Of a DNA stretch of 64,000 bases, positions 31,425-58,830 are shown piece by piece. The DNA comes from Geobacter sp. FeAm09. Lineage in GTDB: Bacteria; Desulfobacterota; Desulfuromonadia; Geobacterales; Pseudopelobacteraceae. The DNA lies in the NCBI RefSeq assembly GCF_008330225.1, contig NZ_CP042466.1, positions 2,242,501 through 2,306,500 on the forward strand, in the 5' to 3' direction. The first letter of the stretch is position 1. Every line of letters starts with the position of its first letter. The notes under the pieces were generated by a model that saw only the letters and a program-made list of their open reading frames with translations, ran no database searches and had not been told where the DNA came from. The position numbers and the translations under genes are program-made.

Positions 31425-32234
31425 TCAACTGACTCCGATGATGACGCTGGAGGCCTCGAACAGGGTGCAGGCGTGGCTGCCGACCTTCAGACCCAGCCGG
31501 TTGGCGCTGTCGTGGGTGATGACGGCGGTGACGGTGGTACCGCCGCCGATCTCGACGGCCACCTCGGTGCTGACCGGCCCGTCGATGATCTTGGTCACGG
31601 TGCCGCAGAAGACATTGCGCGTGCTGACCTTGACGTCATGCACGTCGGTGCCGATCAAGACCGAACTCGCCTTGATGATGGCGTACGCCTCGATGCCGGG
31701 TTTCAGCCCCAGATTGTCGATGGCTCCATTGGTAATGACGGCCGTGAGGGCGATGCCGCCTTTCAGCGTCATCCTGATCTCGGAGTTGACGGCGCCCATG
31801 GCAAGCTCCGTTATGGTACCGATGAAGGTGTTGCGCGCGCTGACCTTCAGGGAAATCCTCTTCAGAAAGCGAAACAGCCGGTCGGTATCGTCGAGCCGGT
31901 CCCCCAGGTTTTCCAGAAACTTGCGGTGTTCCTCCTCAATGATCTTGAACCGCGTGACCACGTTTTTGCCTTCGGCGGTGAGCCTGGTGCCGCCGCCCCC
32001 CTTGCCGCCCGTCAAACGATCGACCAGTGGCCTTTCCGCCATGTTGTTGACCAGATTGACCAGATCCCACGCGGTTTTGTAGCAGAGCCCCATGGCCCTG
32101 GCGGCCTTGCTGATCGAGCCGAGTTCGTCGATCTTTTCCAGCAGGTCGATCCTATCGCTTCCCAGGAACTTGTTCTCCGCGCGGTTAAACCAGAGATTGC
32201 CGGCAAGTCCGACCTTCATGGCATCGGTTTTCAT
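31425..32234 (-). CDS. modE: Molybdate-responsive transcriptional regulator ModE (with two TOBE domains)
   Basis: A 269-residue protein. An N-terminal winged helix-turn-helix of the ModE/LysR type (IDELGSISKAARAMGLCYKTAW) ends in the typical GGKGGGGTRLTAEGK hinge. Two C-terminal molybdate-binding MOP/TOBE modules follow, each beginning KVSARN or KVSTRN (about 130-265). ModE normally dimerises on molybdate or tungstate and binds ATCGNTATATA-type palindromes, repressing modABC and activating Mo-enzyme genes. GGAGGT precedes the start at 32234. No modABC is adjacent; the gene lies downstream of an OprO/P-like porin whose promoter region carries such a palindrome. Confidence 0.93.
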   Translation of the reverse strand: MKTDAMKVGLAGNLWFNRAENKFLGSDRIDLLEKIDELGSISKAARAMGLCYKTAWDLVNLVNNMAERPLVDRLTGGKGGGGTRLTAEGKNVVTRFKIIEEEHRKFLENLGDRLDDTDRLFRFLKRISLKVSARNTFIGTITELAMGAVNSEIRMTLKGGIALTAVITNGAIDNLGLKPGIEAYAIIKASSVLIGTDVHDVKVSTRNVFCGTVTKIIDGPVSTEVAVEIGGGTTVTAVITHDSANRLGLKVGSHACTLFEASSVIIGVS

Positions 32235-32382
32235 AGAGGCACCTCCACCTAAGCTCCTCGGTGACAAAATCCTACTCCCCGCTCCCCCGGGCCTCTCCCA
32301 TGCCGCAAGGGAAAACTATCTTCCCCGGCGGCATGAAAGCGGCGTGCGGACGGCCTGATGATACGCGCTACGCTGCCCTACC

Positions 32383-33723
32383 CTAGAACACCAGTTGCAA
32401 CTGCACCCGGGCCTGATTGTCGTCCGTGGGCTGCATGACTACGCTTGTGGACTGGGATATCAGGTTTCTCTGCTTGTGGATGGCGGTGTAATCGGCCTGG
32501 AGCTTCAGGTAGTGTTCCCTGATGTACCAGGAGACCGCCACGCTGTTCTCGATCCAGTGGTCGTTGAGCGCCAGGGTGTTGTTGTTGATGTTCGGGTCCA
32601 GGTAGGCATAGCGATAGGCCACTTCAAGCGTCTTCGGGATGACCATGTAGCCGGCCTGGGCATAGAAACCCATGGCCCGCTGGCCATACTTGGATTGCTG
32701 GGCATCCCCCTCGCCCCACATATATTCGCCGGAGATGGAGAGCCCGCGCCATTTGAACGCCGCGTCCAGGCCGAGCATGCTGATGTTGACGGACTCGCCC
32801 GACAAAAGCGTACCCCGCTTGTTGAGGGCGAACCACCCGGCCTTGCTCTTCAGGTACCCCAGGCTGTTGTTGGAGGAGGTGCTGTACTCCGTCTCGGTGA
32901 TGGTGTTGCGGTAATAATTGGCGCCGAAGGAGACCAGCGGTTTTTCCGTCTGCTCCAGATCAGCTTCCGTATTCTTCATCTCGCCGAAGGGATTGGCGGT
33001 GATGCGCGCGGACAACGCGTTGTTCCGGGTGGCGCGCACGTAGTTCTGCCCCAGCCCCCCGCTGACCGCCAGGCTATAGGTCACAAGCCCCTTGGGGAGC
33101 TTGCCGAAGAGGCGCACGCCCGTATCGTAGGTCGGCGCAAAAGCGGCCGTCACATGGGACACGTCCACGAATTGCAGGTCGGTGGCGGAAATCAGCCATT
33201 GCCTGCCGAACTGCACCTTCTCCTGGCCGGCGCGCACCTGAAGCTCGTCACGCCACTTATAGTTGATGAAGGCGTTTTCCAACAGGCCTCCGTTCTTCGT
33301 CGAGCCGCCGGCGATATTGGAGAAGTTCGCCGTCACGTTATAGGTAAGGTCCTTGGAGAAGGCGTGGCCGCCAATAACCAGCTTGGCCCGTTTCACCTCG
33401 AACTGGCTGGAAGTGCCTCCCGGGCTGGTGGTCATGCCTACGGAACTGGCTTTGTCATCATTGACATCGTCGGAATTCAGGAACGTGTACCGGGCTTGCA
33501 CGTAGCCGCCGATGGTGGTACTGAAATTCCCGTCGGCCGTGGTCAGGGTGATCCCCTGCCCCGGCTTGTAGCTGACGGCGGGCGTACTCTTCACGATCCG
33601 CTTGTACTCCTCCTCCGTGATCATCCCCTTCTGCTTCAGCACATCCTCCAGGCTCTCCGCCAGGACGGTGCCGGCCTGGGCCATAACCGCGGCGGCACCC
33701 AACAGGATTACCAACTTCTTCAT
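32383..33723 (-). CDS. OprO/OprP-like outer-membrane porin
   Basis: A 446-residue exported protein with signal peptide MKKLVILLGAAAVMAQAGTVLA. It has a short periplasmic helix with EEEYKRIVKS and then a beta-barrel of the phosphate-selective porin O/P family, ending in the outer-membrane insertion signal QARVQLQLVF (terminal Phe). FGRQWLISATDLQFVDVS and the GGYVQARYTF first strand are typical. Family members pass anions such as phosphate or pyrophosphate, so an oxyanion substrate is plausible. A ModE-type palindrome lies about 66 bases upstream of the start, suggesting Mo-dependent control and possibly molybdate as cargo (inference). Confidence 0.9.
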   Translation of the reverse strand: MKKLVILLGAAAVMAQAGTVLAESLEDVLKQKGMITEEEYKRIVKSTPAVSYKPGQGITLTTADGNFSTTIGGYVQARYTFLNSDDVNDDKASSVGMTTSPGGTSSQFEVKRAKLVIGGHAFSKDLTYNVTANFSNIAGGSTKNGGLLENAFINYKWRDELQVRAGQEKVQFGRQWLISATDLQFVDVSHVTAAFAPTYDTGVRLFGKLPKGLVTYSLAVSGGLGQNYVRATRNNALSARITANPFGEMKNTEADLEQTEKPLVSFGANYYRNTITETEYSTSSNNSLGYLKSKAGWFALNKRGTLLSGESVNISMLGLDAAFKWRGLSISGEYMWGEGDAQQSKYGQRAMGFYAQAGYMVIPKTLEVAYRYAYLDPNINNNTLALNDHWIENSVAVSWYIREHYLKLQADYTAIHKQRNLISQSTSVVMQPTDDNQARVQLQLVF

Positions 33724-33788
33724 GTACTACCTCCTTTGTTGTGGCGTTCGCTCTGCGACGCCGTGGTAAATGCACAAAAGCTGCGCAA

Positions 33789-33812
33789 GCTATATAACTA
33801 ATTACATAACGA
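33789..33812. promoter_or_regulatory. ModE-type operator upstream of the porin gene
   Basis: Read toward the porin the site is TCGTTATGTA, six bases, then TATATAGC. This closely fits the published ModE consensus half-sites (ATCGNTATATA and TATATAACGAT in either orientation). It is 66 bases upstream of the porin start and near the expected promoter. Confidence 0.7.
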
Positions 33813-33965: not shown

Positions 33966-34733
33966 TCAGGTTTTAACGTCGAAATTTATGTCGACAATCA
34001 GCGGCATTTCGTTTGGAGGTTTCTCGAACGGTGCGCTGTCCCGGGCGGCCTTCAAGGCACTGGCGTCCAGGGCGGCATAGCCGCTGCTCCTTTTCACCCG
34101 CAGGGAACCGTCCTTGATCTGCCCGGATTCCGTAACCCAAAAGTAGATTTGGGTAACAGCCACGATCCCCATCCGCCTTGCTTCCTTGGGGTAGACAACA
34201 TTGCTCCGGAGCCGTTTTGTTACCTTTTCTCCGTACCTTCTTTTCCGGTCCGCCTCCTGTTCCGCCGCCGTCCTGATGCTCTGCTGCCGCTGCCGCTCAG
34301 CGTCGGCGCCCGAGGTAGTCACCTGCGCCGCGGCCACGCTCTGCACCGCCACGGCCGCCGCCGGGGCGGGCTTGGTCTCCGGCTCCACCGGTTTGGGCTT
34401 TTCCTCCGTCTTGTGCACGCTGACCGGGCTCTCCGTGGCCACGGTGCGGTAGGTGACGGTCTTGGGGGGACGGTACGCCTCGCGCCGTTGCGGCGCGGCC
34501 TGCTGCGCCACCTTCTTTTCCGCCACCTGCCGGTCGGCCACCATACCGAACAGCTCGATCTGGAGCCGGGAGCGCATATGCCGCGCCGGCGAGTGCAGGC
34601 TGAACAGGATGAACGGCACGATGAGGCAGGCGTGCAGCAGCGAGGAAACAGAAAGCCACTGGCACATCCCGGAACTACTCCCATAGCGGGGCACGCCATC
34701 GCCCCCGCCGTATGAAGCTGGACACGTATTCAT
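33966..34733 (-). CDS. tonB: TonB-like energy-transducing protein
   Basis: A 255-residue protein with one membrane anchor (about 28-46, VSSLLHACLIVPFILF), a Pro/Lys/Glu-rich periplasmic spacer (PPKTVTYRT to KPAPAAA) and a C-terminal TonB domain (170-255) with YPKEARRMGI and VKRSSGYAALDASALKAAR. TonB passes proton-motive force from ExbB/ExbD to outer-membrane receptors. The start lies 3 bases after the exbD stop. The TonB-dependent receptor at the right end of the window is a possible client, but the tps locus itself encodes none, so the client is open. Confidence 0.9.
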   Translation of the reverse strand: MNTCPASYGGGDGVPRYGSSSGMCQWLSVSSLLHACLIVPFILFSLHSPARHMRSRLQIELFGMVADRQVAEKKVAQQAAPQRREAYRPPKTVTYRTVATESPVSVHKTEEKPKPVEPETKPAPAAAVAVQSVAAAQVTTSGADAERQRQQSIRTAAEQEADRKRRYGEKVTKRLRSNVVYPKEARRMGIVAVTQIYFWVTESGQIKDGSLRVKRSSGYAALDASALKAARDSAPFEKPPNEMPLIVDINFDVKT

Positions 34734-34736: not shown

Positions 34737-35117
34737 TCACGTCCGATTCTTGGTCTGGACGGCCACCTTCTTGAAGCTCAACTGCTTCAGCAGGTCGGCC
34801 ACGTCGATGAAATGCTGCAGGGTGATCTCCCGGTCCGCCCGGATGATGAAGCCGGTATCCTTGCCCAGGGGGGCCAGTTCGCCTCTCATGGAGTCCAGGG
34901 TCACCTGCTTGCTGTTGAAATAGATGCTGCCGTTGGCCCCCAGTTCGATGATGGCCGCCTTGTCCGTCTCCGCCGCACTCTTCGAGGCCTGGGGCAGATT
35001 GACCGGAATGCGGCCGCTGGCGATGAAGCTCGACGTGGTCAACACGATGGTCAGAAGCACCAGCATGATGTCCACGAACGGGATCACGTTCATGGTTTCA
35101 AAGGGTTTTTCGTCCAT
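34737..35117 (-). CDS. exbD: ExbD/TolR biopolymer transport protein
   Basis: A 126-residue protein with one N-terminal membrane helix containing the essential proton-carrying Asp in [13 protein letters not shown], followed by a periplasmic ExbD/TolR domain. [16 protein letters not shown] is the standard opening. The gene overlaps the end of exbB by 20 bases and is followed at once by tonB, so the three form a complete energising module. ExbD rather than TolR is chosen because tonB, not tolA, follows. Confidence 0.93.
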
Positions 35118-35538
35118 TGGCTATCTCCCATTGCAGCATCAGCACCTTGGCCTTGCGCAGCAGCGCGTTGTACAGCACCACCGACACCAGCGCCACCACC
35201 AGTCCCACCGCCGTCGCCTTCAGGGCCAGGGCCAGGCCGGTCATGATCTTGCCCGTGTCCATGGCCGCATCCTGCCCCATGTTGTAGAAGGTCAGCATGA
35301 TCCCGAGCACGGTCCCCAGAAGCCCCAGGTAGGGGGCATTGCTCCCCACCGAGGCGATCACGGAGAGCTTCTCCGTCAGCACCAGTTCCAGGGACTTGAT
35401 ATTATCGAAATCCCCGACCTTCAGCTTGCGGTACAGGCCGTACCGCTCCAGCGCCACGGCCACCACGATCACGCTCAGGAACAGCAGCAGGCCGATAATC
35501 CCGTAATCGATCGTTCCCGACAACCACTTCACCATCAT
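35098..35538 (-). CDS. exbB: ExbB/TolQ-type proton channel protein
   Basis: A 146-residue member of the MotA/TolQ/ExbB family, short relative to E. coli ExbB (244). It has three membrane helices (about 14-32, 66-90, 105-128) and the conserved segments [19 protein letters not shown] and [20 protein letters not shown]. It forms the pentameric channel around ExbD. AAAGGA precedes the start. A 258-base gap with two hairpins separates it from tpsB upstream, so cotranscription with tpsB is possible but not certain. Confidence 0.92.
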
Positions 35539-35796: not shown

Positions 35797-37556
35797 TCAA
35801 AACGCCGCGCCGAACTGCAGCAGGAAACGGGTGCCCGGATCGTTGACGCCGCTGGTTTTCCCCACCGGCTGGGCCACCTGGGCGGTGCAGAACAGCTGCT
35901 TGTAGCCGGCGTAATACCCCACGCCGGCATCGCTCAGGATGTAGATATCGTTGGCGGCGTACTCCCCTTTTTCCGCATAGGCCAGGCCGTGATCGAAGAA
36001 CGCCCCCAGGGAGTGCTTGTAGCCCCCCAGGGACGGCAGGGCGTATTTGACTTCCAGGTTCACCAGATAACCGTTGTCGAAACCGACACTCTCGGAATAG
36101 GCCTTGACGCCGCCGAGCCCGGAGATGAAGAACTGCTCGCTCGAATCGATGTTGGCCGCCGACAGCACCTGCTGCATCTTGAACGACGCCTTGGCGGAGA
36201 TATCCTCGGTCAGTTCCAGGTTGGCGCCCAGCGCCAGGTCGAATTTGGAATAGATGCCTTTCGAATTGGCACCTTTGTTGTTCTGTTCCAGGGTAGTCGA
36301 GTCGGCGTCCGTGAACTCCACCGAACCGACGCTGAAGCTGGCGGTGGCATTGGTGAAGAGATGTTGGCCCAAGAGGCTGCCGTAGGCGTTCCTCTGCATG
36401 GCCACGGTCCCGGCAAAGCCCTCCCTCCGGTTATGGGTGGTTGCCGAGGTAAACCACAGATCGTCCCACAGTTTCTTGTAGGCGAAATTCACGGAGAGGT
36501 CGTAGGCCTCCTCGCTGGTTTTCCTGACCGGATAAAAGACGGTGCCTTCCAGGGAATCCGCCACGCCTACCGCGTTCAGATAGGAGTATTCGCCGCCGAG
36601 CTGGTAATTGGTCCGGGCCGCCGCCACTTCGCCGCGCAGGCCGTTACGGGCCAGGGGAAAGCCGTAGGCCAGCCGGGCGTTCCACAGGTCGGCGTCCTCG
36701 GTGATCATGCCGCTGACCGAGAGCTTGTCGGCGCTGCCGGTGGGCGAATTGAGGTCGATGCCGCCGTAGACGCGATTTCGCCCCGTGAAGCGCGACCCCT
36801 GGTTGTCCGCCATGAGGTAGCCGTTCACGCGCTGCCCGGCGGGCACGTTCACCTCGAAATCGGTGGTGCCCGGCAAGGTGCCCGGCGCCAGGGTGACCGT
36901 GGGGATGGCGCACCCCGGCAGGTCCCTGACCACCAGGATGGCACGTTCCAGACCGGCCTTGGTGACGACCGGAGAGGCATCATCCTTGGTGTTGTCGAAG
37001 ACCCCCTGGAGGAACGAATCTCTCACCGGGGATTTGTTCTTCAGGGCAAAGGTGCCGTAGCTGCCCATGACGATCCTGATGGTCAGAACGCCGTCCCTGG
37101 CGTCCTGCTTGGGGATGTAGGCCTTGGCCACCAGGTACCCCTTGTTCCGGTGGAAGATGGTCAGCCTGTTGGCCGCCTCCGTGATCTCCGTCATGGTCAG
37201 ATCCCGGTTCCGGTACGGCGTCAGCAGGGCCAGCAGTGTGGCCTCATCCCCCTTTTCAGCCCCTTCCAGCCGGAAATCCCTGATGAAGATCTTTTCGCCG
37301 TCGGTCATGGAGAACGGCTTCTCCTCTTCCTGGATAATGACCGGCTTGTCCGGGGCCGGCACCTCTTTTTTGGGCGGCGGGGGGGAGGAGTTGCCTCCTT
37401 CATGGCGCCGCCGATGTTGTAATCGGGGATCGCCGGAGTAGCAGGAGTCACCAGGGGCGCAGGGGCGGCGAAAACGGTGGATGCAGCGATGACGAGCGCC
37501 GGGAGAGTGAGTAACCGCCCTGCGGCTGCCGCCGGGCGACTGGAAAATTTGTGCAT
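35797..37556 (-). CDS. TpsB (ShlB/FhaC/HecB) two-partner secretion transporter, split by a frameshift
   Basis: The outer-membrane transporter that exports TpsA. The long frame (35797-37362) covers a POTRA region (IFIRDFRLEGA, then DGVLTIRIVMGSYGTF) and the FhaC-type barrel ending GTRFLLQFGAAF, with the L6 loop motif DNQGSRFTG and GLGGVKAY. It lacks a signal peptide. That lies upstream in another frame: MHKFSSRPAAAAGRLLTLPA at 37556, preceded by AGGGGA. The two frames meet at a run of seven C (plus-strand G, 37379-37385); eight C would join them perfectly into a PPPPPKKEVPAPDKP linker. So either phase-variable, an assembly error, or recently broken. Confidence 0.85.
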
Positions 37557-37603: not shown

Positions 37604-38638
37604 TCAGCTATTCTCCCCGGACAGGCGGATCTCCACCTTGGCCCGGTCCCGCAACTGCTTCACGAAGGGCAGCAGCTCCTTTTCCGTCTTTTCCTGCTTG
37701 AGCGTGGCCGCAATCCGCTCCTTCAGCTCGTCGAAGGTGGGGGTGAAGGCCGCCCTGCTCTCCATTACCTTGATCAGGTGCAGGCCGAAGCGGTCCTCCA
37801 CGACGGCGGACACCTCCCCCACCTTGAGATTTTTGACCTTGGCGTGCATCTCCGCCGGCATCTGCTCCTGGGTAAACCAGCCGATGTCCCCTCCCCGGGT
37901 CCGGTTCTTGGCGTCGTCGGAAAATTGGGCCGCCAGGGCCGCAAAATCGTCGCCCCGGGCCACCCGTTTCTGCACCTCGGCGATCTTCTCCGCCGCCCCC
38001 TTCTTCTGTTCCGGGGCGGCGTCCTTGGCCAGGGCGATGAGCACATGGCTCAGGTGGACCCGGGCGGGCTGGGCGAAGCTCGCCGCGTTGCGCTCGTAAT
38101 AGCCCTTGGCCTCCTCCGGCGTCACCGTGACCTTCTTGCCGATGGCCTCGTCGATCAGGGTGCGGATGGCGATCCCTTGGGCGATCTGCTCCCGCACCTG
38201 GGCCTCGCTCAGCTTGAGGCGCGCCAGGGTCTCGCCGTACTGGCTCTCGCCGGCGAAATTGGCCTTGTACTGCTGGTATTCCCGGTCGATGGTCGCGGCG
38301 TCGATGGCGATGTTCCGCCGCCGGCTCTCCTGGAAGAGCAACTCGCGGGTGATCATGTTGTCCAGGGTTTCCTGTTTCACCCGGGCCATCATGGCGTCAT
38401 GGGCCAGCTTGGCCTTGGCCTCCTGCAACTGGGTGGCGCTTTCCAGTTCCTTCTGGTACGCCCCCATGGTGATGGCCGTGCCGTTGACCAGCACGGCCGC
38501 GGCGGCGGGGTCATCGGGCGCCGGTGCGGAGTGGCCCGGGATGGCCAGGCCCCAGGCGCACAGGGCCAGCGTCAGGAGCCTGGCGGCGATTGAACAGCAC
38601 ACGGTGAAACGGTTACGGCGTTCGCATCTGTCTTTCAT
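37604..38638 (-). CDS. PpiC-type peptidylprolyl isomerase (SurA/PrsA-like)
   Basis: A 344-residue exported protein. It has an N-terminal signal segment (LLTLALCAWGLAIPGHS), a SurA-like helical chaperone domain (about 45-190, LVNGTAITMGAYQKEL) and a parvulin domain (about 195-300) with HLSHVLIALA, GGDIGWFTQEQMPAEM and FGLHLIKVMESR. In the periplasm it would keep unfolded TpsA or the barrel proteins competent for secretion. It starts 47 bases before the tpsB signal peptide, so the two are surely cotranscribed. A dedicated isomerase inside a two-partner locus is seen in several bacteria. Confidence 0.88.
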   Translation of the reverse strand: MKDRCERRNRFTVCCSIAARLLTLALCAWGLAIPGHSAPAPDDPAAAAVLVNGTAITMGAYQKELESATQLQEAKAKLAHDAMMARVKQETLDNMITRELLFQESRRRNIAIDAATIDREYQQYKANFAGESQYGETLARLKLSEAQVREQIAQGIAIRTLIDEAIGKKVTVTPEEAKGYYERNAASFAQPARVHLSHVLIALAKDAAPEQKKGAAEKIAEVQKRVARGDDFAALAAQFSDDAKNRTRGGDIGWFTQEQMPAEMHAKVKNLKVGEVSAVVEDRFGLHLIKVMESRAAFTPTFDELKERIAATLKQEKTEKELLPFVKQLRDRAKVEIRLSGENS

Positions 38639-39816: not shown

Positions 39817-40266
39817 TGTTAGTCCTCCATGTTTATTCGGGTTATGTTTCACCTTTGTCTGATTCCACTTCTGCCATAAGGGGCCGGGGTTCCCTCATGG
39901 CAACCTTCCCGGCGTGGATCGGGGGACCTCCCCTTCGGTTGCCGGGTTCCTCGCCTGCGGCGTCGGGCCGCAGATGCCGGTTTTCTTTTGCGGGCTGGTT
40001 CGCCCATCACCCCCTTTCGCCGTGGTCCGTGTACCTCGGGGCCGATGCCCTCAAGGCCCTGTTTCCCGGCCGGGAACGCCGGATCAAGGGGGAACGTAGT
40101 GGCAGCGGCCGCGCGCACCAGGGGGACGGGTACTGCCCGTTCCTCCATGTCCCCTGTCGCGCGCCTCCCCCTCTGCTATCCGGATGTGCGCCACCCCGGG
40201 GGGCCGGCCCCGGGGTCGTGTTCCCGGCCGGGAACCCTGGCGCCGCACCGTGCGGCGCACTCGCCC
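39817..40266. other. 450-base intergenic region between tpsA and the modA-like gene
   Basis: No gene is supported. It contains several perfect palindromes: GCGCCGCAC-c-GTGCGGCGC (40240-40258) just after the tpsA stop, GTTCCCGGCCGGGAAC (40220-40235) and a second TTCCCGGCCGGGAA (40063-40076). On the minus strand a further long stem joins GGCAACC and GGTTGCC near 39900-39950, ahead of the modA-like start. These could form a terminator plus a structured leader, but there is no T-run. GGGAACCGGC-type palindromes recur elsewhere in the locus. Confidence 0.5.
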
Positions 40267-47463: not shown

Positions 47464-47489
47464 TCGATGTATACCTTATTACATAATGC
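47464..47489. promoter_or_regulatory. ModE-type operator in the divergent region
   Basis: TCGATGTATA, six bases (CCTTAT), then TACATAATGCA. A symmetric palindrome with the same half-site spacing as the other sites. Confidence 0.55.
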
Positions 47490-48406: not shown

Positions 48407-48411
48407 AAGAC

Positions 48412-48435
48412 GAAATATAACTATCGACATAACGG
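48412..48435. promoter_or_regulatory. ModE-type operator upstream of leader copy A
   Basis: GAAATATA, six bases, GACATAACGG. The right half matches the sites at 33789 and 48551 almost exactly. Confidence 0.55.
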
Positions 48436-48540: not shown

Positions 48541-48550
48541 TCTTCGTACC

Positions 48551-48575
48551 GTAATATAAATGTAAACATAACGAA
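48551..48575. promoter_or_regulatory. ModE-type operator upstream of leader copy B
   Basis: CGTAATATA, six bases, AACATAACGA. It lies between leader copies A and B, so copy B probably has its own promoter. Confidence 0.62.
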
Positions 48576-48700: not shown

Positions 48701-48705
48701 GCGAC

Positions 48706-49854: not shown

Positions 49855-52800
49855 ATGCCTCAGAAAATGTCAAGAAGGTTACGGAGTTGGAAAAATAATC
49901 TGATGATCCGGTTCTGGCGCAGGCTGTGGAGGTGTATCCCGGCCGCCATGCTGCCGGTCGCGGCGGTGGCGCTCTTTTTCGCGCCGACCGCCTGGGCGGG
50001 CGTGACCTCCAGCGGCGACATCTCTCCCGCCACCGACCCGAGCACCTGGACCTCGAGCACCGCGGCATACATCGGATACAATACGGGCGATGGCTCCCTG
50101 GGCATCGACGGCGGCAGCACCGTGACCGACAGCACGGCACGGCTCGGGTACGCCGCCGGGAAAACGGGAACCGCTACCGTGGACGGTTCCGGCTCCAAAT
50201 GGACCAACTCCAGCGGCCTTACCTTAGGCTATTACGGCACCGGGACGCTCACCATCACCAACGGCGCCTCCGTTACCGGCGGCAGTAGCGGCTTTAGCCT
50301 TGGCCTCTATGCCGGATCAAACGGCAGTGTAACCGTTAATGGTACGGGTTCGACGTGGAGCAGCAGTGGCCCCCTGAACGTCGGCTATTCAGGCGCTGGG
50401 ACGGGGACGGTTGCCGTTACCAACGGCGCAACCGCCGGCAGTGGCTATGGCACTATCGCCAACGGCACCGTCACCGTGGACGGTACCGGCTCGACATGGT
50501 CTACGACTACGATGAACGGGAGCTACGGCCTTTTTGTAGGCTCGAGTGGTACTGGAACTCTCAATATAACCAACGGTTCTGCGGTTTCGGTCGTAGGGGC
50601 GACTACCGTCGGCAGCCTCGGAAAGATCAACTTCGGCACCGCCGGCGGCGCCCTCACCACCGGCATGCTCTACGCCTCGCCGTCGCTGATAACCGGCACC
50701 GGCACGATCAACACCTCCGGTATGGTGAGCGACCTGGACCTGACCCTCGACGCCTCCCACGGCACCACGCAAACGGTCACGAAAAACAATATTGCCTATA
50801 ACTTGACCCTGGCCGCCACCAACCCGCTCGGTTTCGGATATCTCGGTTCGGGAACCCTGAGTATCACGGGGGGCGCCACCGCCACATCCAAGGTCGGCTA
50901 TCTCGGCTACCTGGCCGGCTCCACCGGTGCGGCAACCGTCAGCGGGTCCGGTTCCAAGTGGACCGACAACGCCGAACTGTACATAGGATATTCCGGCGCC
51001 GGGTCGCTTGCCATCGCGAATGGCGGCACGGTCACGAATACCTCCTACGGCTATATCGGCAACAACGCCGGCTCCACAGGCAGCGTCACCGTCGACGGCG
51101 CCGGCTCGACGTGGAACAACTCCAACACCCAATTGTATGTAGGGAGTTTCGGCAGCGGGACGCTTGCCATCACGAATGCCGGCGTGGTCAGCAATCTCGG
51201 CGCCTATCTCGGCTACAACGCCGGCTCCAGCGGCACGGTCACCGTCGATGGCCCGGGCTCGCAATGGAATACCACCGGCGATCTTACCTTAGCTTACTTA
51301 GGCACGGGGAAACTGAGTATTCTCAACGGCTCGAAGGCTACCGTCACGGGCAAGACCACCCTCGGCACCTCGGGGAGTCTCGATTTCGGTCCCAACGGCG
51401 GCACCCTCACCACCGGCATGCTCTACGCTACGCCGGCCCAGATATCGGGCAGCGGCACCATCACCACCAACGGCATCATCAGCGACGTCAATCTCGTCTT
51501 CGACGCCTCCCACGGCGTGAGCCAATCCTTTGCGCAGAACGGCATCGTCTACAACCTGAACCAGTCCGCCGCCAACCCGCTCGGGGTAGGGTATCTGGGT
51601 ACGGGCAGCCTGAACATCTCGGGCGGCGTCACCGTTACATCCTCCAGCGGTTATATCGGCGGCAATAATGCCAGCGGCACCGGCACGGCAACCGTTAGCG
51701 GCGCAAACTCCAAATGGATCAACAGCGGCCTGCTGAACATCGGTACCGCTGGCACCGGTGCACTCAGTATACTGAACGGCGGCTACGTCAGCGATACGGT
51801 CGGTACCGTCGGTTACAAAGGCACCGTCACCGTGGACGGGTCGGCCACCCTGGACGGCACGACCACGCCCTCCACGTGGCTCAACAGCACCAGCCTCACC
51901 CTCGGCAACTATTTAGGCGGCGGAAGGCTCAACATCAGCAATGGTGGTTTGGTGTCCGTCACCGGCGCAACGACCGTCCTGAGCGGCAGCGCCATCAACT
52001 TCACCGGCGGCACCCTCACCACCGGTTCGCTCTTTGCCTCGCCGCCGGCGCAAATGTCGGGTAGCGGCACGATCAACGCCTCCGGCCTGGTCGTGGATGC
52101 GGATCTGGTCTTCGACGCATCTCACGGCGCCACTCAAACCCTGGCGCTGAACGGCGTTACGACGAACCTGACCCAGAGCAGCGCCAGAGAGCTCGGGGTC
52201 GGCTACTTCGGTACGGGGACCCTGAACATCTCGGGCGGTGCCGGTATCGCATCGTCCACCGGCTATCTCGGCTACAATGCCGGGTCGAACGGTACGGCAA
52301 CCGTTGACGGCGCAAACTCCCGGTGGACCAATACGACCCTGAACGCGGGCAATTCCGGCACCGGCACCCTCAGCATCACCAACGGCGGCTACGTCAAAAG
52401 CACCACCGCCGGCATTGTCGGCGTCAGCGCCGGTAGCACCGGCATCGTCACCGTGGACGGCTCGGCCACCGCCGACGGCACGACAACGCCCTCGACCTGG
52501 GAGAACAGCGCCGCCCTCACCGTCGGCTCGGCCGGCAATGGGAAGCTCAACATCACCAACGGCGGCTACGTCAAAAACACCACAGCCGTCATCAGCAACA
52601 GCAGCGGTTCCGCCGGTGCCGTCGTCGTGGACGGCGCCGGCTCGAAGTGGGAGAACAGCAGCACCCTTGCCGTCGGCAGCAGCAGCGCCACCGGGACGTT
52701 CAACGGGTCGCTCAGGGTCGGCAACGGCGGCTACGTCAGCAATACCAACGCAACCATCAACAACTCCGCTGTCGCCGCCGTCGACGGCGCAGCCACGGTG

Positions 52801-55800
52801 GCCGGCGTCACGACCCCCTCCCAGTGGCTCACCACCGGCACCCTTGCCGTCGGCGGCCTGTACGGCGCGGGTACGATCAACGTGACCAACGGCGGGTATG
52901 TCAAGAATACCGGAGCCGCCACGATCGGTTACAACAACAATAACGACAAGAATATCGTCAGCGTGGCCGGAACGGGCTCGAAGTGGGACAACAGCAGCAC
53001 CCTTGCCCTCGGCTCCATCCAGAACAGCAACAAGACCGTGAACGGCATCGGCAGGCTCAATATCGGCAACGGCGGGACCGTTACGACGACGGGCGTCACC
53101 ATCAACAGCACCTCGACCCTGACCACCGACGCAGGCGGTACGCTCACCGTCGGCAGCGGCGGCATCACCAATTACGGTGTCATCCGCATGGTTGCGGGTG
53201 CGGCGACGACGAACGGCGTCTTTACCCCCATCTCCGCCGGCACCTGGGCAAATACCATCACCTATACCACGGTCACACCCAACGTAACGTTCACCGGCAC
53301 CGTTCAGGCCCTGGGAGGGGTGTACGACGCCACCGCCCACACGGTAACCGTTGCTCCGGCGGCAACGACCACTGCCGGCACAGCCTCCACCTTCGACCTG
53401 GCCTCGACCCAGCGCGTGCTGGTCACCGATGCCGGCACGGGCCAGGCGGTCGGAGCAGCTTTCCAGGCCACGACGTCCTCAACCAGCCTGACCTTCAATG
53501 CAACCGCCATCGGCGGGACGGAACTGACCTCACTGCAGGGCACCACCAGCACGCCGGTGCTTGGCGGGTGGGACTTCACCACCGCCGGCTACACCTCCGG
53601 CGACCCGGTCTATCTTTCGTTCTCCGTCAGTTCGGGACAGGATCAATCCGGCCTTATGGTCTGGAAGTATAACAGCGGGACCGCCACCTGGTCGAAGTAC
53701 GCGGCCGGCGACCTGGTCCATGACGGCGCCTATGCCGGCTTCACCGTTACCGACCTCGGCACCTATGCAATAACCAGCGGCTCGGTGGCAGCTCCCGGCG
53801 CGCCCACCGGGGTAACCGCCGTGGCCGGCAACGGCCAGGCCGCCGTTACCTTCACGCCGCCCGCCAACAACGGCGGCAGCGCCATCACCGGCTACACCGT
53901 CACCTCCAGCCCGGCGGGAGGGGTGGACAGCAATGCCGGCTCCCCCGCCACCACCCATATCGTTACCGGCCTGACCAACGGCACCTCCTATTTCTTTACC
54001 GTCACCGCCACCAATGGGCTTTTGACCAGCGTCGCTTCCACGTCGTCGTCAAGCTCCGTCACTCCCACCGCGTCCCTCACCGTACCCGGAGCGCCCACCG
54101 GGGTTAGCGCCGTGGCCGGCAGCGGCCAGGCGGTCGTGACCTTCACCGCACCCACCGACACCGGCGGCAGCGCCATCACCGGCTACACCGTGACCTCCAG
54201 CCCGGCGGGCGGGGTGGACAGCAACGCCGGCTCCACCGCCAAGTATCATACCATCACCGGCCTGACCAACGGCGTCACCTACACCTTCACCGTCACCGCC
54301 ACCAATGCGTTAGGGACCGGCGCCGGCGCAACATCCAACAGCGTCACCCCCACGATGCCTCTCTTTGCGCCCAGCGCCCCGACCGGCGTCACCGCCACAC
54401 CCGGTGCCTCCCAGGTGACCGTGAGCTTCAACGCACCGGTCTCCGACGGCAACAGCGCCATCACCGGCTACACGGTCGTCTCCTCACCCGGCTCCATAAC
54501 CGCCACCGGTACGGCCAGCCCGATCACCGTTACCGGTCTGACCAACGGTACCGCCTATACCTTCACCGTCACCGCCACCAATGCGATCGGAACCAGCGCC
54601 TCCGCAACATCCGGCAGCGTCACCCCGAGCTCCGGCCCCGGCGCCCCCACGGGGGTCAGCGCCGTGGCGGGCAACGGCCAGGCGACCGTGAGCTTCACGG
54701 CGCCCGCCGACAACGGCGGCAGCGCCGTCATCGCCTATACGGCGGTTTCCACACCCGGCTCCATAACCGCCAGCGGCACGGCCAGCCCGATTACCGTTTC
54801 CGGCCTGACCAACGGTACCGCCTATACCTTCACCGTCACCGCCACCAACGCCGTCGGCAGCGGTATCGCTTCCGGCTCATCCAATAGCGTGACTCCGTAC
54901 ACCGTGCCCGGCGCACCCACGGGGGTCACCGCCGTTCCCGGCTACACCCAGGCTGTCGTGAGCTTCACCGCTCCCTCGTCCAACGGTGGCAGCGCCATCA
55001 CCGGCTATACCGTGGTCTCCAACCCAACGGGCGGGGTGGACAGCAACGCCGGCTCCACCAGCCTGAGCCACACCATAACCGGGCTGACCAACGGCACCGC
55101 CTACACCTTCACCGTCACCGCCACCAACGCGGCCGGCAGCGGCGCCGCTTCCGATCCGTCCAGCAGCGTCACCCCCGCTATTCCTTCTACACCGACGACG
55201 GTCACCCTGTTCTCGGACTATCAGACCTACGTGGTTTCCGGCAGCGATGCGCCTTCGAACACCACCGGCGCCACCTATGCCGATACGAGTTTCTACAGCA
55301 AAGGCGCCATGATGATTTCGGCACCGGCAGCCACAACGTACTACCCGAACCCGCGTACCATGAACTCGTTGTTCAGCTTCAATACGGCCGTCGACAAAAA
55401 GGGCAAGGGGGGCACCTACGCCCCCGCCAACGGCAGCACCGACGTGATCGGCGCCGATATCAAATCGGCCTTCAACAGCACGTATGGCACGGGCAACTGG
55501 TACATCTCCTCGGTCAGCATTGCCCTGGCGTCCAATTATACGGAGGAAGGCATTCAGCCCAACAACCCTGATTTCAACAAGGTGGCTTCCGGGCTGTTTA
55601 CCTTCAAACTGTTGGGCGGCAACCCGGAGATCTCCACAACCACCTGGAATACGCTCCAAACGTACCTTGCCCTCCCCACAACCACTGCGACAACCATAGG
55701 GACGTTCCAGTGGAATGCAACCGCGACCGGCACCAACAATACCAGCGCAGAGCCGCAGACGACCTACAGCCTGACGGTCAACGACAGCCTCACCACGGCA

Positions 55801-57519
55801 GTCCTCTCCGGCGAACTGACGCTGCTGGGGGTCGCGGCCGATGACAAGGTCGGCTACCTGTTCAACACCTCCAACAGGCTCGCCCCGCAGATCAGCATCA
55901 CCGCAGCCGCGTTCTCCGCCCCGGGCGCCCCTGGCGGGGTCACCGCCACGGCGGGCAACGCCCAGGCGAGTGTAGCCTTCACCGCGCCCGCATCCAACGG
56001 CGGCAGCGCCATCACCGGCTATACCGTTATCTCAAACCCGGCGGGCGGAGTGGACATCGACGCCGGCACCACCGCCACCACCCATACCGTCACCGGCCTG
56101 AACAACGGCACGGCCTATACCTTCACCGTCACCGCCACCAATGCCAAGGGTACGAGCATCGCTTCAGCCGCATCGAACAGCGTTGTCCCCGCCGTGGCGG
56201 CCGTCCTCACGCCGAGCATCGGGGCACCTTCCGTCACCATCGCAAAATCGGGCACGACCGTGACCTACAGCGTAAGTTACAACAACGCGGACGCCATCAC
56301 CCTGACCGCCGACAACGTCACCCTCAACAAGACCGACTCCGCCACCGGCACGGTGACGGTCAGCGGCAGCGGCACCGTCAGCCGCACGGTCACTATTTCC
56401 AATATCCTTGGGGACGGCACCCTCGGCATCACCATCAAAGAAAAAACCGCCACTGCCGGCGGAAGCGCCACCACCGCCACCCAATCAGCGCCGAGCGCGA
56501 CCTTCACGGTGGACAATACCGCTCCGGAGCTGACGGTTTCCGCCCTTGCCGACGGCACGGTCACCAGCAGCAACACCCTCACCGTCATGGGCACCGTTAG
56601 CGATGCCAACAACGTTCAGAGCCTGACCGTGAACGGGACCGTCGTTACCGTGACCAACGGGGCTTTCAACACGGCCGTTGCCCTTATTCCCGGCACCAAT
56701 ACCATTCTGGTCGCCGCGACCGACCCGGTTGGAAACCAGGCGACCAACAGCCGGGCCATCATCTACGACTACACGGCGCCGACCATCACCTTTGCCGACC
56801 CGACTCCCGCCGATGGCAGCCAGACCAACCAGCAGATGGTCACCATCACCGGCACGCTCAGCGAGGCCGGCACCGTGGATGTCAAGGTGGGAACCGGGGA
56901 CTTCCAGGCCGCAAGCATGAGTAACAGCGGCACCACCTTCACCTACCAGGCCGTGCTGGCATCCGGCCAGAACACGATCACCGTCAGGGCCACGGACCTG
57001 GTGAACGACGGCACCAAAAACAGTGCCACCGTTTCCCGCACGATCACTTCCGACACGGTCGCCCCGACGCTGGCCATCACCGACCCGTCCGGCGACACAA
57101 CCACCACCTTGAGCGTCTACCAACTGAGCGGCACCGTTTCCGACCAGTATACGGGCATCACTTCCGTCGGCCTCACGGTTGACGGGGTGGCGGTAACGCC
57201 GTCGCCAGCGGTAACCAACGGCGTATTCCAGCAGACCTTGACGTTCACCACCGGCAAGACCTACGCCATCGTCGTCACGGCAACCGATGCCGCCGGCAAC
57301 ACCACGACGATCCAGCGCAACATCGTCTTCAGGCCGCTCACCGTAGCCGATCCCCTGCGTGCCTTGCAGATCGCCGTGGGGCTTGTCGCCCAGACATCGG
57401 CCGACAGCGTCCTGGACGTGGGGCCGCTGGTCAACGGCAAGCCCCATGCCGACGGCATCATCGACGTGAGCGATGCCATTGCGCTGCTCCGCCGAGCCGT
57501 CGGGCTTGTGATCTGGTAG
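49855..57519 (+). CDS. Giant secreted repeat protein with Fn3 domains and C-terminal dockerin-like module
   Basis: A 2554-residue protein with a long signal region (LPVAAVALFFAPTAWA). Residues 50-1180 are autotransporter-type repeats (VDGSGSKW, LTITNGA), organised in large blocks each closing with a DASHG segment. Six fibronectin type III domains follow (GAPTGVTAVAGNGQ pattern; about 1315-1775 and 2020-2115), separated by a unique domain (about 1780-2020). Then come Ig-like domains (about 2115-2495). The last 55 residues, ending LVNGKPHADGIIDVSDAIAL and LRRAVGLVIW, form a dockerin-like calcium loop and helix. There is no barrel, so it is not an autotransporter. AGGGGGA precedes the start. It probably docks on the next gene's cohesin. 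Confidence 0.88.
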   Translation: MPQKMSRRLRSWKNNLMIRFWRRLWRCIPAAMLPVAAVALFFAPTAWAGVTSSGDISPATDPSTWTSSTAAYIGYNTGDGSLGIDGGSTVTDSTARLGYAAGKTGTATVDGSGSKWTNSSGLTLGYYGTGTLTITNGASVTGGSSGFSLGLYAGSNGSVTVNGTGSTWSSSGPLNVGYSGAGTGTVAVTNGATAGSGYGTIANGTVTVDGTGSTWSTTTMNGSYGLFVGSSGTGTLNITNGSAVSVVGATTVGSLGKINFGTAGGALTTGMLYASPSLITGTGTINTSGMVSDLDLTLDASHGTTQTVTKNNIAYNLTLAATNPLGFGYLGSGTLSITGGATATSKVGYLGYLAGSTGAATVSGSGSKWTDNAELYIGYSGAGSLAIANGGTVTNTSYGYIGNNAGSTGSVTVDGAGSTWNNSNTQLYVGSFGSGTLAITNAGVVSNLGAYLGYNAGSSGTVTVDGPGSQWNTTGDLTLAYLGTGKLSILNGSKATVTGKTTLGTSGSLDFGPNGGTLTTGMLYATPAQISGSGTITTNGIISDVNLVFDASHGVSQSFAQNGIVYNLNQSAANPLGVGYLGTGSLNISGGVTVTSSSGYIGGNNASGTGTATVSGANSKWINSGLLNIGTAGTGALSILNGGYVSDTVGTVGYKGTVTVDGSATLDGTTTPSTWLNSTSLTLGNYLGGGRLNISNGGLVSVTGATTVLSGSAINFTGGTLTTGSLFASPPAQMSGSGTINASGLVVDADLVFDASHGATQTLALNGVTTNLTQSSARELGVGYFGTGTLNISGGAGIASSTGYLGYNAGSNGTATVDGANSRWTNTTLNAGNSGTGTLSITNGGYVKSTTAGIVGVSAGSTGIVTVDGSATADGTTTPSTWENSAALTVGSAGNGKLNITNGGYVKNTTAVISNSSGSAGAVVVDGAGSKWENSSTLAVGSSSATGTFNGSLRVGNGGYVSNTNATINNSAVAAVDGAATVAGVTTPSQWLTTGTLAVGGLYGAGTINVTNGGYVKNTGAATIGYNNNNDKNIVSVAGTGSKWDNSSTLALGSIQNSNKTVNGIGRLNIGNGGTVTTTGVTINSTSTLTTDAGGTLTVGSGGITNYGVIRMVAGAATTNGVFTPISAGTWANTITYTTVTPNVTFTGTVQALGGVYDATAHTVTVAPAATTTAGTASTFDLASTQRVLVTDAGTGQAVGAAFQATTSSTSLTFNATAIGGTELTSLQGTTSTPVLGGWDFTTAGYTSGDPVYLSFSVSSGQDQSGLMVWKYNSGTATWSKYAAGDLVHDGAYAGFTVTDLGTYAITSGSVAAPGAPTGVTAVAGNGQAAVTFTPPANNGGSAITGYTVTSSPAGGVDSNAGSPATTHIVTGLTNGTSYFFTVTATNGLLTSVASTSSSSSVTPTASLTVPGAPTGVSAVAGSGQAVVTFTAPTDTGGSAITGYTVTSSPAGGVDSNAGSTAKYHTITGLTNGVTYTFTVTATNALGTGAGATSNSVTPTMPLFAPSAPTGVTATPGASQVTVSFNAPVSDGNSAITGYTVVSSPGSITATGTASPITVTGLTNGTAYTFTVTATNAIGTSASATSGSVTPSSGPGAPTGVSAVAGNGQATVSFTAPADNGGSAVIAYTAVSTPGSITASGTASPITVSGLTNGTAYTFTVTATNAVGSGIASGSSNSVTPYTVPGAPTGVTAVPGYTQAVVSFTAPSSNGGSAITGYTVVSNPTGGVDSNAGSTSLSHTITGLTNGTAYTFTVTATNAAGSGAASDPSSSVTPAIPSTPTTVTLFSDYQTYVVSGSDAPSNTTGATYADTSFYSKGAMMISAPAATTYYPNPRTMNSLFSFNTAVDKKGKGGTYAPANGSTDVIGADIKSAFNSTYGTGNWYISSVSIALASNYTEEGIQPNNPDFNKVASGLFTFKLLGGNPEISTTTWNTLQTYLALPTTTATTIGTFQWNATATGTNNTSAEPQTTYSLTVNDSLTTAVLSGELTLLGVAADDKVGYLFNTSNRLAPQISITAAAFSAPGAPGGVTATAGNAQASVAFTAPASNGGSAITGYTVISNPAGGVDIDAGTTATTHTVTGLNNGTAYTFTVTATNAKGTSIASAASNSVVPAVAAVLTPSIGAPSVTIAKSGTTVTYSVSYNNADAITLTADNVTLNKTDSATGTVTVSGSGTVSRTVTISNILGDGTLGITIKEKTATAGGSATTATQSAPSATFTVDNTAPELTVSALADGTVTSSNTLTVMGTVSDANNVQSLTVNGTVVTVTNGAFNTAVALIPGTNTILVAATDPVGNQATNSRAIIYDYTAPTITFADPTPADGSQTNQQMVTITGTLSEAGTVDVKVGTGDFQAASMSNSGTTFTYQAVLASGQNTITVRATDLVNDGTKNSATVSRTITSDTVAPTLAITDPSGDTTTTLSVYQLSGTVSDQYTGITSVGLTVDGVAVTPSPAVTNGVFQQTLTFTTGKTYAIVVTATDAAGNTTTIQRNIVFRPLTVADPLRALQIAVGLVAQTSADSVLDVGPLVNGKPHADGIIDVSDAIALLRRAVGLVIW

Positions 57520-57536
57520 CACGATCATCTTGAAAG

Positions 57537-57575
57537 CCCTTTGGGGGGTGAACCACGTGTTTACCCTCCAAAGGG
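57537..57575. promoter_or_regulatory. Long hairpin between the dockerin and cohesin genes
   Basis: CCCTTTGG (57537-57544) pairs with CCAAAGGG (57568-57575) and pairing continues inward to a CACGTG core with few mismatches. No T-run follows. It may stabilise one cistron's end or limit read-through so the two partners are made in unequal amounts. Confidence 0.6.
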
Positions 57576-57624
57576 AGAGGACATATACCGTATGAGACCC
57601 GGAGAAGTTCAAAGGAGAAACGAT

Positions 57625-58830
57625 ATGAAGCCCAGTTTTATCTTCCGCCTGATACTGATGATGTGCCTGCTCGCCCTGTTCGGCTGTGGCGGCGGCGGTG
57701 GCTCCACGTCGGCCACCACCGTGGCCGGTGTGGTTTCCAAGGGAATATTCACCAGCGGCCAGGTCAAAATCTACGCCTTGAACGCCGACGGCAGCAAGGG
57801 CACCCTGCTGCAGACCGTAAGCGTCGGTGCTGACGGCAGCTACACCGCCAGCCTCGGCTCCTATTCCGGCGCGATCCTTGCCGAGGCGAGCGGTGCATAC
57901 AAGGACGAGGCGACCGGCACGACCATGCAGGTAGCCGATACCGCCCCCCTGCGCACCGCACTGCAAAGCGCCTCGGGAACGATCACGCTCAACATTACCC
58001 CCCTGACGGAGATCGCGGTAACGAAGGCCACGGATGCCACAAGCAAAAAAATCACCGTAACGTCGATCTCCTCCTCCAACACCACGGTAGCCACGGCCTT
58101 CCATGTGGCTGACATTGTGACCACCACGCCGGTGGACGTAACCGGTGCCGCGTCGGCCACGGCCACGGAGGCGCAGAAGGAATATTCCTTGGTGCTGGCC
58201 GCCGTATCCCAGTTGATGCAGACCAGCAGCCAGGACCTGACAACGGTGGTCACGCAGTTGTCCAGCGGCATTACCGGCACGGGCAGCAGCGCCTCACTGG
58301 CCGCCACCACTGCCGCCAGCTTTCAGGCGGCCCTGCAAACGATCGCCGCGGATACGAGCAAGAACAAGACCGGCGTTACCGATGTGACCGCGACACCGCT
58401 TATCAACATCGGCGGCACCACGGCGACCGTCACCCTGAGCACTCTGGGCAGCGCCACGACGCTGAACGGCATTCAGGTGACCCTCGAGTTGCCTGCCGGC
58501 GTCACGGTCAAGGCCGCCAGTTCCGATGCCTCGACTGCCCTGTCGCCCCTGGCCGGACTGGTAGCGGCATCCGGTGTGGTTCCTTCCGGGGCGACCTTTT
58601 TGGCTCACTATGTATCCGCCACCTCGACGGCCGGCGCCCAACTGACCCTGGGGCTGATCAGTACGACAAGTTTTGCCACCGGAGAATTTGCGACGATCCA
58701 GTGCGATGTCGCGCCGGGCGTGACCATCGGCACGTCATCGTTTACCTCGTCCAGCTATTCGAATCTAAAGGTCGTCGATGCGGCCGGAGCGGTCGTTTCG
58801 GGGATTACCGTCAGCGCCGCTGTCAAGTAA
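57625..58830 (+). CDS. Lipoprotein with C-terminal cohesin-like domain
   Basis: A 401-residue protein. The start at 57625 has AAAGGAGAAA upstream and gives a lipoprotein signal with lipobox LALFGC followed by a Gly run. A carboxypeptidase-regulatory-like beta domain (about 35-110, GVVSKGIFTSGQVKIYALN) and a Thr/Ser-rich helical middle lead to a C-terminal domain (about 255-400). This has TLNGIQVTLELPAGVTVKAA and FATIQCDVAPGVTI, the strand pattern of cohesins. Cohesins bind dockerins; the preceding gene encodes one. I infer that this protein, lipid-anchored to the outer membrane, holds the giant protein at the surface. Confidence 0.82.
   Translation: MKPSFIFRLILMMCLLALFGCGGGGGSTSATTVAGVVSKGIFTSGQVKIYALNADGSKGTLLQTVSVGADGSYTASLGSYSGAILAEASGAYKDEATGTTMQVADTAPLRTALQSASGTITLNITPLTEIAVTKATDATSKKITVTSISSSNTTVATAFHVADIVTTTPVDVTGAASATATEAQKEYSLVLAAVSQLMQTSSQDLTTVVTQLSSGITGTGSSASLAATTAASFQAALQTIAADTSKNKTGVTDVTATPLINIGGTTATVTLSTLGSATTLNGIQVTLELPAGVTVKAASSDASTALSPLAGLVAASGVVPSGATFLAHYVSATSTAGAQLTLGLISTTSFATGEFATIQCDVAPGVTIGTSSFTSSSYSNLKVVDAAGAVVSGITVSAAVK

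Follow-up and report, generated by a model that had tools for sequence, protein, structure and literature searches.

The stretch of DNA analysed here (the window) comprises 64,000 nucleotides of the genome of Geobacter sp. FeAm09 (the host genome, termed G000, one contig of 4.10 Mb), namely C1:2242501-2306500. It carries two adjacent divergent modules of genes, a left module on the minus strand and a right module on the plus strand, both associated with sites of the type bound by the regulator ModE. Taken together, the two modules are moderately likely to constitute one outer-membrane system, under ModE control, for acquiring molybdate and/or tungstate, a reading based on sequence comparison and on models. 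In transcription order, the left module consists of tpsA, a modA-like gene, a SurA/PpiC isomerase gene, tpsB, exbB, exbD, tonB, a Porin_O_P gene and modE; exbB and exbD overlap, exbD and tonB are almost contiguous, and the remaining gaps are of 115-414 bases. The plus strand carries a modE gene encoding the helix-turn-helix (HTH) domain only and then the right module, which begins with genes for a secreted-looking protein of 269 amino acids (aa), a giant of 2554 aa with fn3 and Ig-like domains and a lipoprotein-like protein of 429 aa. The original prediction placed the system at 31425..58830, which truncates the right-hand unit: it continues beyond 58830 to a TonB receptor gene at 62730 and passes the end of the window. 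The features, with protein domains assigned by Pfam or NCBIfam, are listed below; G052 is a genome of the same genus and G056 one of another genus.

31425..32267, minus strand: full-length ModE, with a winged HTH and two Mop/TOBE domains (Mop 139 bits)
32383..33723, minus strand: Porin_O_P outer-membrane porin (Pfam), a putative molybdenum/tungsten (Mo/W) oxyanion porin
33788..33811, no strand: ModE site, 64 bp before the porin gene, at the same position in G052
33966..34733, minus strand: TonB (Pfam)
34737..35117, minus strand: ExbD (Pfam)
35098..35538, minus strand: ExbB (Pfam)
35797..37362, minus strand: TpsB (POTRA_2 and ShlB/FhaC barrel)
37604..38638, minus strand: SurA/PpiC-type peptidyl-prolyl isomerase (SurA_N/Rotamase)
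38905..39852, minus strand: ModA-like oxyanion-binding protein (P0002) of a tpsA-linked branch (homology, fold, ligand residues)
40267..46971, minus strand: TpsA exoprotein, 2234 aa (TPS domain, YDG and GLUG repeats)
47136..47159, no strand: ModE site, 164 bp before tpsA
47389..47412, no strand: ModE site between tpsA and the HTH-only modE, the weakest, with 4 mismatches
47465..47488, no strand: ModE site between tpsA and the HTH-only modE
48008..48358, plus strand: HTH-only ModE-like regulator (ModE_repress, E 4e-23, below its cut-off)
48383..48405, no strand: perfect 23-bp palindrome CGTTATGCACCTTAGGCATAACG, ModE-like with a spacer one base shorter, not a standard ModE site
48411..48434, no strand: ModE site before the right-hand unit
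48550..48573, no strand: ModE site before the right-hand unit, 369 bp from the first start codon
48943..49752, plus strand: secreted-looking 269-aa protein, first of the right-hand unit (G056, 72% identical, behind two sites; in 2 of 76 family genomes)
49855..57519, plus strand: 2554-aa giant with fn3 and Ig-like domains, its dockerin-like tail seen by eye only (G056, 74% over 2122 residues)
57541..58830, plus strand: 429-aa lipoprotein-like protein (G056, 66% identical)
58846..59592, plus strand: conserved protein without a Pfam match (in the G056 unit, 66-68%)
59793..61742, plus strand: membrane Fe-S protein (CCG, Fer4, Nitrate_red_gam), assigned to the unit from its position; no counterpart was seen in the G056 unit
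61739..62764, plus strand: FecB/BtuF-type periplasmic binding protein (Peripla_BP_2; G056, 63% identical)
62730..64000, plus strand: TonB-dependent receptor, plug domain, continuing past the window as L292:5230-7416 (G056, 83%)

Most of the components named in the original prediction were recovered: the full ModE (HTH plus two Mop/TOBE domains), a TOBE-less ModE-like regulator (an HTH match and no Mop match), the anion-type porin (as Porin_O_P), ExbB-ExbD-TonB (by Pfam), a two-partner secretion (TPS) pair with its isomerase (TPS domain, POTRA plus FhaC-type barrel, SurA/PpiC), and the ModA-like protein (by homology, predicted fold and ligand residues, despite matching no family). Scans of the window for tRNA and Rfam families gave no matches, and a promoter scan of 46900-49000 gave 9 promoter-like sites versus 2.2 in shuffles, none of which was assigned to a gene.

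The published E. coli-type ModE core, CGnTATATA-N6-TATATAnCG with 16 fixed positions (PMC545781, PMC2700814, in the portions consulted), is matched in the window by two sites with at most two mismatches, by five with at most three and by six with at most four of the 16. Each site is 24 bp long, and all six fall in the three expected intergenic regions (1862 bases in total). By comparison, locally matched Markov sequences gave per-window means of 0 (at most two mismatches), 0.04 (at most three) and 0.38 (at most four; 100 runs, the largest count being 2), and none of 1000 simulations of the three intergenic regions gave six sites. At least seven ModE palindromes before three transcription units had been claimed; six core sites and all three regions stand, while the seventh is the 23-bp variant, CGTTATGCACCTTAGGCATAACG. 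That palindrome (48383-48405) lies directly after the HTH-only modE gene and might be that protein's site. Looser half-site scans at three mismatches were not used as proof because their counts are near chance (12 versus 10.1 for CGTTAT-n12-ATAACG; 16 versus 9.6 and 14 versus 9.2 for two others); significance is taken instead from the full published core and from position.

A whole-genome pattern, CGNTATATANNTNNNNACATAACG with up to three mismatches, was written after the window sites had been seen, the published-core scan being the independent test; similarly, a position weight matrix (PWM) trained on 12 sites, six of them from the window, was used for finding sites in other genomes, where their significance was taken from the published core. 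Within G000, CGNTATATANNTNNNNACATAACG gave 13 forward and 8 reverse rows versus 0 and 2 for the reversed control, corresponding to 15 distinct places, six of which lie within one 14.8-kb stretch of the window. Most of the other nine lie in the company of Mo genes: modD-modABC (L021 13390; ModD, ModB and ModC named by eye); nifH (L021 10377; 464 bits, cut-off 394); a methyltransferase-like gene (by eye) beside cobW-type and SBP_bac_6 genes (L021 6523 and 6710), a set with no known Mo role that is within 7 kb of nifH and modD; a moeA-like gene (by eye; L023 7213); Mo-storage genes together with a two-TOBE Mop gene (L024 6515), one storage subunit being confirmed by a PDB match (E 1e-128); a methyltransferase-DUF364-FmdE-TonB-FecCD cluster (TonB by eye; L022 8694 and 8768); and a TonB receptor gene (L022 14960). 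The predicted ModE regulon of G. sulfurreducens is similar in its E. coli-type sites and its modE-modD-modABC genes, but, unlike G000, the consulted part of its published text, supplementary site table aside, names no TPS protein, ExbB/TonB or TonB receptor (PMC2700814, PMC545781).

As for the regulators themselves, the full ModE falls under the NCBIfam ModE cut-offs (167.7 versus 369 and 95.3 versus 98.5), and its G052 orthologue is 88% identical and in the same position. In the HTH-only protein (48008-48358) neither Pfam nor NCBIfam detects a Mop/TOBE domain. At E ≤ 1e-6 its HTH has matches, among which full-length ModE proteins are counted, in 44 of the 76 family genomes, and close HTH-only relatives (43-60%) occur in G004, G038, G056, G021 and G032. 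These relatives lie near an aldehyde:ferredoxin oxidoreductase gene in G004, mobB and moeA in G056, and molybdopterin genes (by eye) in G021 and G032; neither type of gene was seen on the 9-kb contig bearing the G038 relative. Judging from the sites, both modules are very probably regulated by ModE.

Each module recurs, with its sites, in another genome. G052 keeps the whole left module in unchanged order at 69-97% identity, with ModE sites of 2, 3 and 2 mismatches before tpsA and one of 3 before the porin gene; a search of 53 kb of G052 for the right-hand genes gave nothing but low-complexity hits between the giant protein and TpsA. G056 keeps the right module behind two sites (1 and 0 mismatches), has a tonB gene immediately upstream of those sites, and in the same unit further holds a lipoprotein gene (83%) and a second giant/lipoprotein pair (66% and 58%), followed by nifHDK-like genes (by eye). 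Conservation of the grouping in relatives, which the original prediction had proposed as a check, is therefore partial: the left half is kept in G052 and the right half in G056, both with sites, and the whole only in G000. The single system that it described does contain the ModE-linked parts, but these form two modules, each of which is kept separately elsewhere.

Within the left module, TpsA with its TPS domain and TpsB with POTRA domains and an FhaC-type barrel are encoded in one locus, the combination by which a TPS system is recognized. TpsA also has a second, partial TPS domain near residue 1213, in addition to the N-terminal one. Among the 76 family genomes, TpsB relatives above 32% identity occur only in G000 and G052, and matches at E ≤ 1e-40 in 15. 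The closest described architecture is the Pdt locus of P. aeruginosa (pdtA; phdA-pdtB-exbB2-exbD2-tonB4-PA0696-PA0701), which is under PhoB and sigma-VreI and responds to phosphate scarcity (PMC2729926, PMC4971064, PMC5422565, in the portions consulted). Compared by gene make-up, both loci hold TpsA, TpsB, ExbB, ExbD, TonB and a PpiC-type isomerase; however, Pdt is controlled by phosphate, PhoB and an extracytoplasmic function (ECF) sigma factor, whereas the G000 locus instead has ModE sites, modE, a ModA-like protein and a porin. No ECF sigma factor was found among the window genes run through Pfam; Pho boxes were not searched for. In HxuABC of Haemophilus influenzae, a TPS exoprotein likewise works with a TonB-dependent transporter in metal acquisition, in that case heme-hemopexin uptake (PMC5422565, consulted in part); its ligand is heme/hemopexin, whereas the G000 locus has a ModA-like protein and its TonB receptor is encoded in a divergent unit. 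The consulted part of the same review lists iron, cyclic di-GMP, phosphate and others, with Mo not among them, as controlling TPS systems; it also names many adhesins (PMC5422565). TpsA itself has adhesin-type repeats. These last two points favor an explanation by regulation without acquisition, in which TpsA and the giant proteins would be adhesins or biofilm parts, Mo-bound ModE (ModE-Mo) would convey an environmental cue (nitrogen fixation or a mineral surface), and the porin and modE would be the sole true Mo gene set, the other genes having just fallen under ModE sites; we consider this unlikely.

A link to oxyanions comes from the porin. Its homologues (E ≤ 1e-30) occur in 26 of the 76 family genomes; a modE-HTH match lies within 1 kb at 13 of 31 porin-homologue places, and a ModE site (at most three mismatches) lies within 1 kb upstream at 15 of 30 porin loci (the 30 of the 31 places with a locus), the Markov mean being 0.07 and the downstream count 3 of 30. 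At the remaining 15 loci there is no upstream site even at four mismatches, so that the association holds for half of the family. The neighborhoods, read with a part from within L147 to L149 left out and with gene names partly by eye, are porin-modE-modD-modABC (L152, L155), porin-modE followed by modD and/or a modA-type gene (L153, L154), porin-modE-modABC (L151) and modA-type-porin-modB-modC (L146, L150); in L156 the porin gene lies near a TupA-like gene (252 bits, below the cut-off of 400) and transporter genes. The porin family is in this sense ModE-linked, being tied to ModE sites, modE and mod/tup genes. At L150:7777-18570 (G027), ModE-type sites, a modA-type gene, the porin gene and modBC-like genes lie near anfK (Fe-only nitrogenase beta subunit, 952 bits), an arrangement whose gene content fits a Mo-starvation regulon. 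Among the papers listed by a literature search, none was on a molybdate porin. That porin-modE units occur without tps genes in the relatives that were read agrees with the adhesin explanation. Another alternative, which we consider improbable, is that the cluster serves a different oxyanion (phosphate, sulfate, vanadate, chromate or selenite) in a Pdt-like manner, with ModE control being secondary: its make-up equals that of Pdt, chromate is also bound by ModA, and the porin is of the Porin_O_P family and weakly resembles ExtI of G. sulfurreducens. ExtI, an outer-membrane porin-like protein linked to oxyanions (selenite/tellurite; PMC5877670, consulted in part), provides a Geobacter precedent for a porin associated with oxyanions; the window porin scores only 42.7 bits against it (cut-off 150). 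Against a different oxyanion stands the company kept by the porin homologues: mod genes, a tupA-like gene, modE, and the nearby Fe-only nitrogenase gene.

The ModA-like protein provides a second link. It matches no Pfam or NCBIfam family, TIGR01256 included, even at E 0.1; yet its predicted structure is a type II periplasmic-binding fold like that of ModA, and all four oxyanion ligands of P. aeruginosa ModA (Asn33, Thr60, Tyr141 and Ile168) are kept as N61, T91, Y194 and I230. This ligand set is that of a protein that reportedly has no apparent interaction with either phosphate or sulfate, which likewise argues against a different oxyanion. Foldseek TM-scores to the ModA rows listed are modest (about 0.43-0.59 by query length), and pLDDT (the per-residue model confidence) is below 50 at residues 143-156, 182-188 and 216-224. 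The protein thus shares with periplasmic ModA the fold and the four ligands, but differs from canonical ModA in its tpsA link, its C-terminal pair of cysteines, its lack of an NCBIfam ModA match and the absence of a ModBC neighbor: no modB or modC adjoins the gene, the neighbors of which are TPS and Ton genes, and a canonical modA with modB/modC-like genes lies elsewhere in G000 (L021).

With P0002 as the query, 7 of 395 genomes of the phylum, G000 being one of them, gave a match at E ≤ 0.01; within the family the protein occurs in 2 of the 76 genomes, and a three-sequence profile matched 25 of 59 genomes of the class of G435. Sixteen loci were taken for neighborhood reading (one 101-base filler was left out). 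In eight of these (L032, L069, L070 and L072-L076) tpsA adjoins the ModA-like gene and shares its strand, tpsB separating the two in L073; L071, a 3.9-kb contig without a tps gene, is a branch member by sequence; and the other seven have no tps gene, four of them (L035, L036, L038 and L077) having a modB-like neighbor by eye. L032 and L069-L071 are labeled as deltaproteobacterial metagenome-assembled genomes (MAGs). A contig scan with P0002 alone gave 35 stretches matching the pattern, none of which was confirmed. A further scan kept 80 of 267 confirmed loci, of which 70 have modB/modC-like neighbors, five have tps genes and five have neither; three of the five tps loci (L159-L161) are L032, L069 and L070, L193 was not counted in the branch, and L196, from an alphaproteobacterial MAG (Xanthobacteraceae) with the same ModA-like/tpsA pair, is alone new. 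The tpsA-linked branch occurs in three distant lineages, and, since a modA with a modB-like gene is also held by G435, G474 and G000 (L035, L077 and L021), the tpsA-linked form is an extra copy in these genomes. Where tpsA adjoins it, the ModA-like gene with intact ligands stays in place even in lineages without recognizable ModE sites there, which argues against the adhesin explanation.

As for the ligand residues in the branch, all 12 sequences share N, Y and I, and nine have T where the other three have S. A cysteine (C311) replaces the conserved glycine before the final tyrosine in 11 of the 12 (versus 0 of 34 other ModA sequences), and C254 is present in 11 of the 12 and in six of the 34; in the branch these two could form a disulfide. 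A 46-row tree places 11 of these 12 in one group (94/90) and L075 elsewhere, several branches being long. A single origin of the branch was not recovered: 3% of bootstrap trees have one, and three of the rows are of unusual composition. Another mod/TPS neighborhood was seen at L193:8449-20674 (an uncultured proteobacterium), which comprises modE-mop-modABC, a 558-aa protein without a Pfam match, tpsB and tpsA.

In the right-hand unit, a TonB receptor plug domain is encoded beside a periplasmic binding protein gene, the arrangement by which a TonB-dependent uptake operon is recognized, and this arrangement is kept in G056. The FecB-type binding protein and TonB receptor speak against adhesins as the whole explanation, and it is for this reason that acquisition is favored over attachment. 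The dockerin/cohesin surface pair of the original prediction, in which the 429-aa protein was taken as the cohesin, is unconfirmed: Pfam gave no cohesin or dockerin match for the window proteins, nor for 15 homologues that the 429-aa protein has elsewhere; a single-sequence fold of the C-terminus of that protein was poor (pLDDT 49). The family of the 429-aa protein occurs in 29 of the 76 family genomes (E ≤ 1e-8), with up to three matches per genome, and in both G000 and G056 two proteins of this type each come after giant fn3-type proteins.

Mo/W acquisition is thus a fairly likely role, in view of the family of the porin, the ligands of the ModA-like protein and the unit with the TonB receptor. 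A Mo/W-controlled surface structure for attachment or oxyanion capture had been proposed; the sites before three units and the oxyanion link through the porin family and the ModA-like ligands agree with this, attachment being the less favored half. In E. coli, ModE-Mo represses upon binding its sites. By analogy, ModE-Mo would bind the sites and repress both modules when Mo/W is plentiful, and the modules would be switched on when it is scarce. The porin would then pass the oxyanion across the outer membrane, and the ExbB-ExbD-TonB of the left module would energize the right-hand TonB receptor, which together with the FecB-type binding protein might import a complexed form of the metal. TpsB would export TpsA to the surface with the help of the isomerase; the ModA-like protein would retain the oxyanion, either within the periplasm or together with TpsA at the surface, and hand it to the separate ModABC of the genome; the giant fn3 proteins may be surface anchors or capture proteins; and the HTH-only ModE may bind the ModE sites alongside full-length ModE or in competition with it. 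A surface role for the ModA-like protein together with TpsA is speculative. Equally tentative is the full outer-membrane route for Mo/W, in which a ModA-type protein would work with a surface filament exported by two-partner secretion and be backed by a dedicated oxyanion porin and a TonB-energized receptor, all under ModE; were it to hold, it would be a metal-acquisition machine of a new kind, a molybdenum counterpart of HxuA/hemophore systems, and the tpsA-linked sequences, from at least three distant lineages, would form a ModA branch belonging to surface systems.

Several observations weigh against one acquisition system. First, both modules are rare: of the 76 family genomes, 2 have the left one and 2 the right one, and the full grouping was seen solely in G000. 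Second, the signal-peptide-like frame of tpsB is out of frame with its body in this assembly (window 37363-37560), so that the secretion arm may be inactive or phase-variable, or its sequence wrong; a seven-base homopolymer lies between frame and body, the G052 tpsB is in frame and lacks the run, and the break may reflect a sequencing or assembly error, phase variation or decay. Third, the alignment used for the ModA-like model held canonical ModA rows, which biases the modeled fold toward ModA. Fourth, no convincing ModE site was found at the TPS/ModA-like loci of the MAGs (best PWM score 21.9), a scan with little power because their DNA is AT-rich. Fifth, CGNTATATANNTNNNNACATAACG exceeds its control less clearly in other genomes (rows/control: G052 16/6, G056 14/4, G027 18/5, G049 4/2, G050 4/4). 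Finally, TPS export is not known to depend on TonB. The first two points bear on a further alternative: that two unrelated ModE-regulated islands were joined by chance, one of them with a non-functional tps cluster. The junction solely in G000 and the tpsB broken as assembled speak for this, but the two islands have the same type of site and compatible parts (TonB-ExbBD on the left, a TonB receptor on the right), and G052 has tpsB in frame and the left order fully kept; we consider coincidence highly improbable.

Described molybdate and tungstate uptake starts at periplasmic ModA or TupA, and the crossing of the outer membrane by these oxyanions is, to our knowledge, a gap. One acquisition system, as proposed here, offers candidates for that step: a porin family whose ModE sites are testable in many relatives, a ModA branch linked to secreted surface proteins, and TonB receptors behind ModE sites. 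If correct, it is relevant to nitrogen fixation and to the other enzymes that use Mo/W when the metal is limiting, and Mo/W joins iron and phosphate among the nutrients whose shortage drives TPS systems. In a literature search, which covered few subscription papers, no system was found that joins TPS with molybdate, TonB receptors with ModE, or TPS with ExbB in Geobacter; nor, as the original prediction had held, was a description found that joins all of these families, Pdt being closest in architecture. Given the Pdt-like make-up under ModE, the parts are of known kinds in an apparently unreported combination, with a ModA branch that is possibly new.

Outside the window, ModE-type sites accompany other gene sets. 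At L022:8694-17248 (2.74 Mb in G000) they precede the methyltransferase-DUF364-FmdE-TonB-FecCD cluster and the TonB receptor gene, a set that, by gene content, resembles a further TonB uptake system under ModE control. In L291 of G052, exbB-exbD lie behind such sites and are accompanied by DUF364, a TonB receptor and a protein that is FmdE-like by eye. At L024:6515-9765 (0.955 Mb in G000) the molybdenum storage protein genes and two-TOBE Mop gene have ModE-type sites close by. Finally, at L021:3231-9228, L150:3640-7697 and L155:1851-5064, in three genomes, ModE-type sites lie beside DUF1858/SBP_bac_6, cobW-type GTPase and methyltransferase-like genes, sets that by eye are similar to one another.

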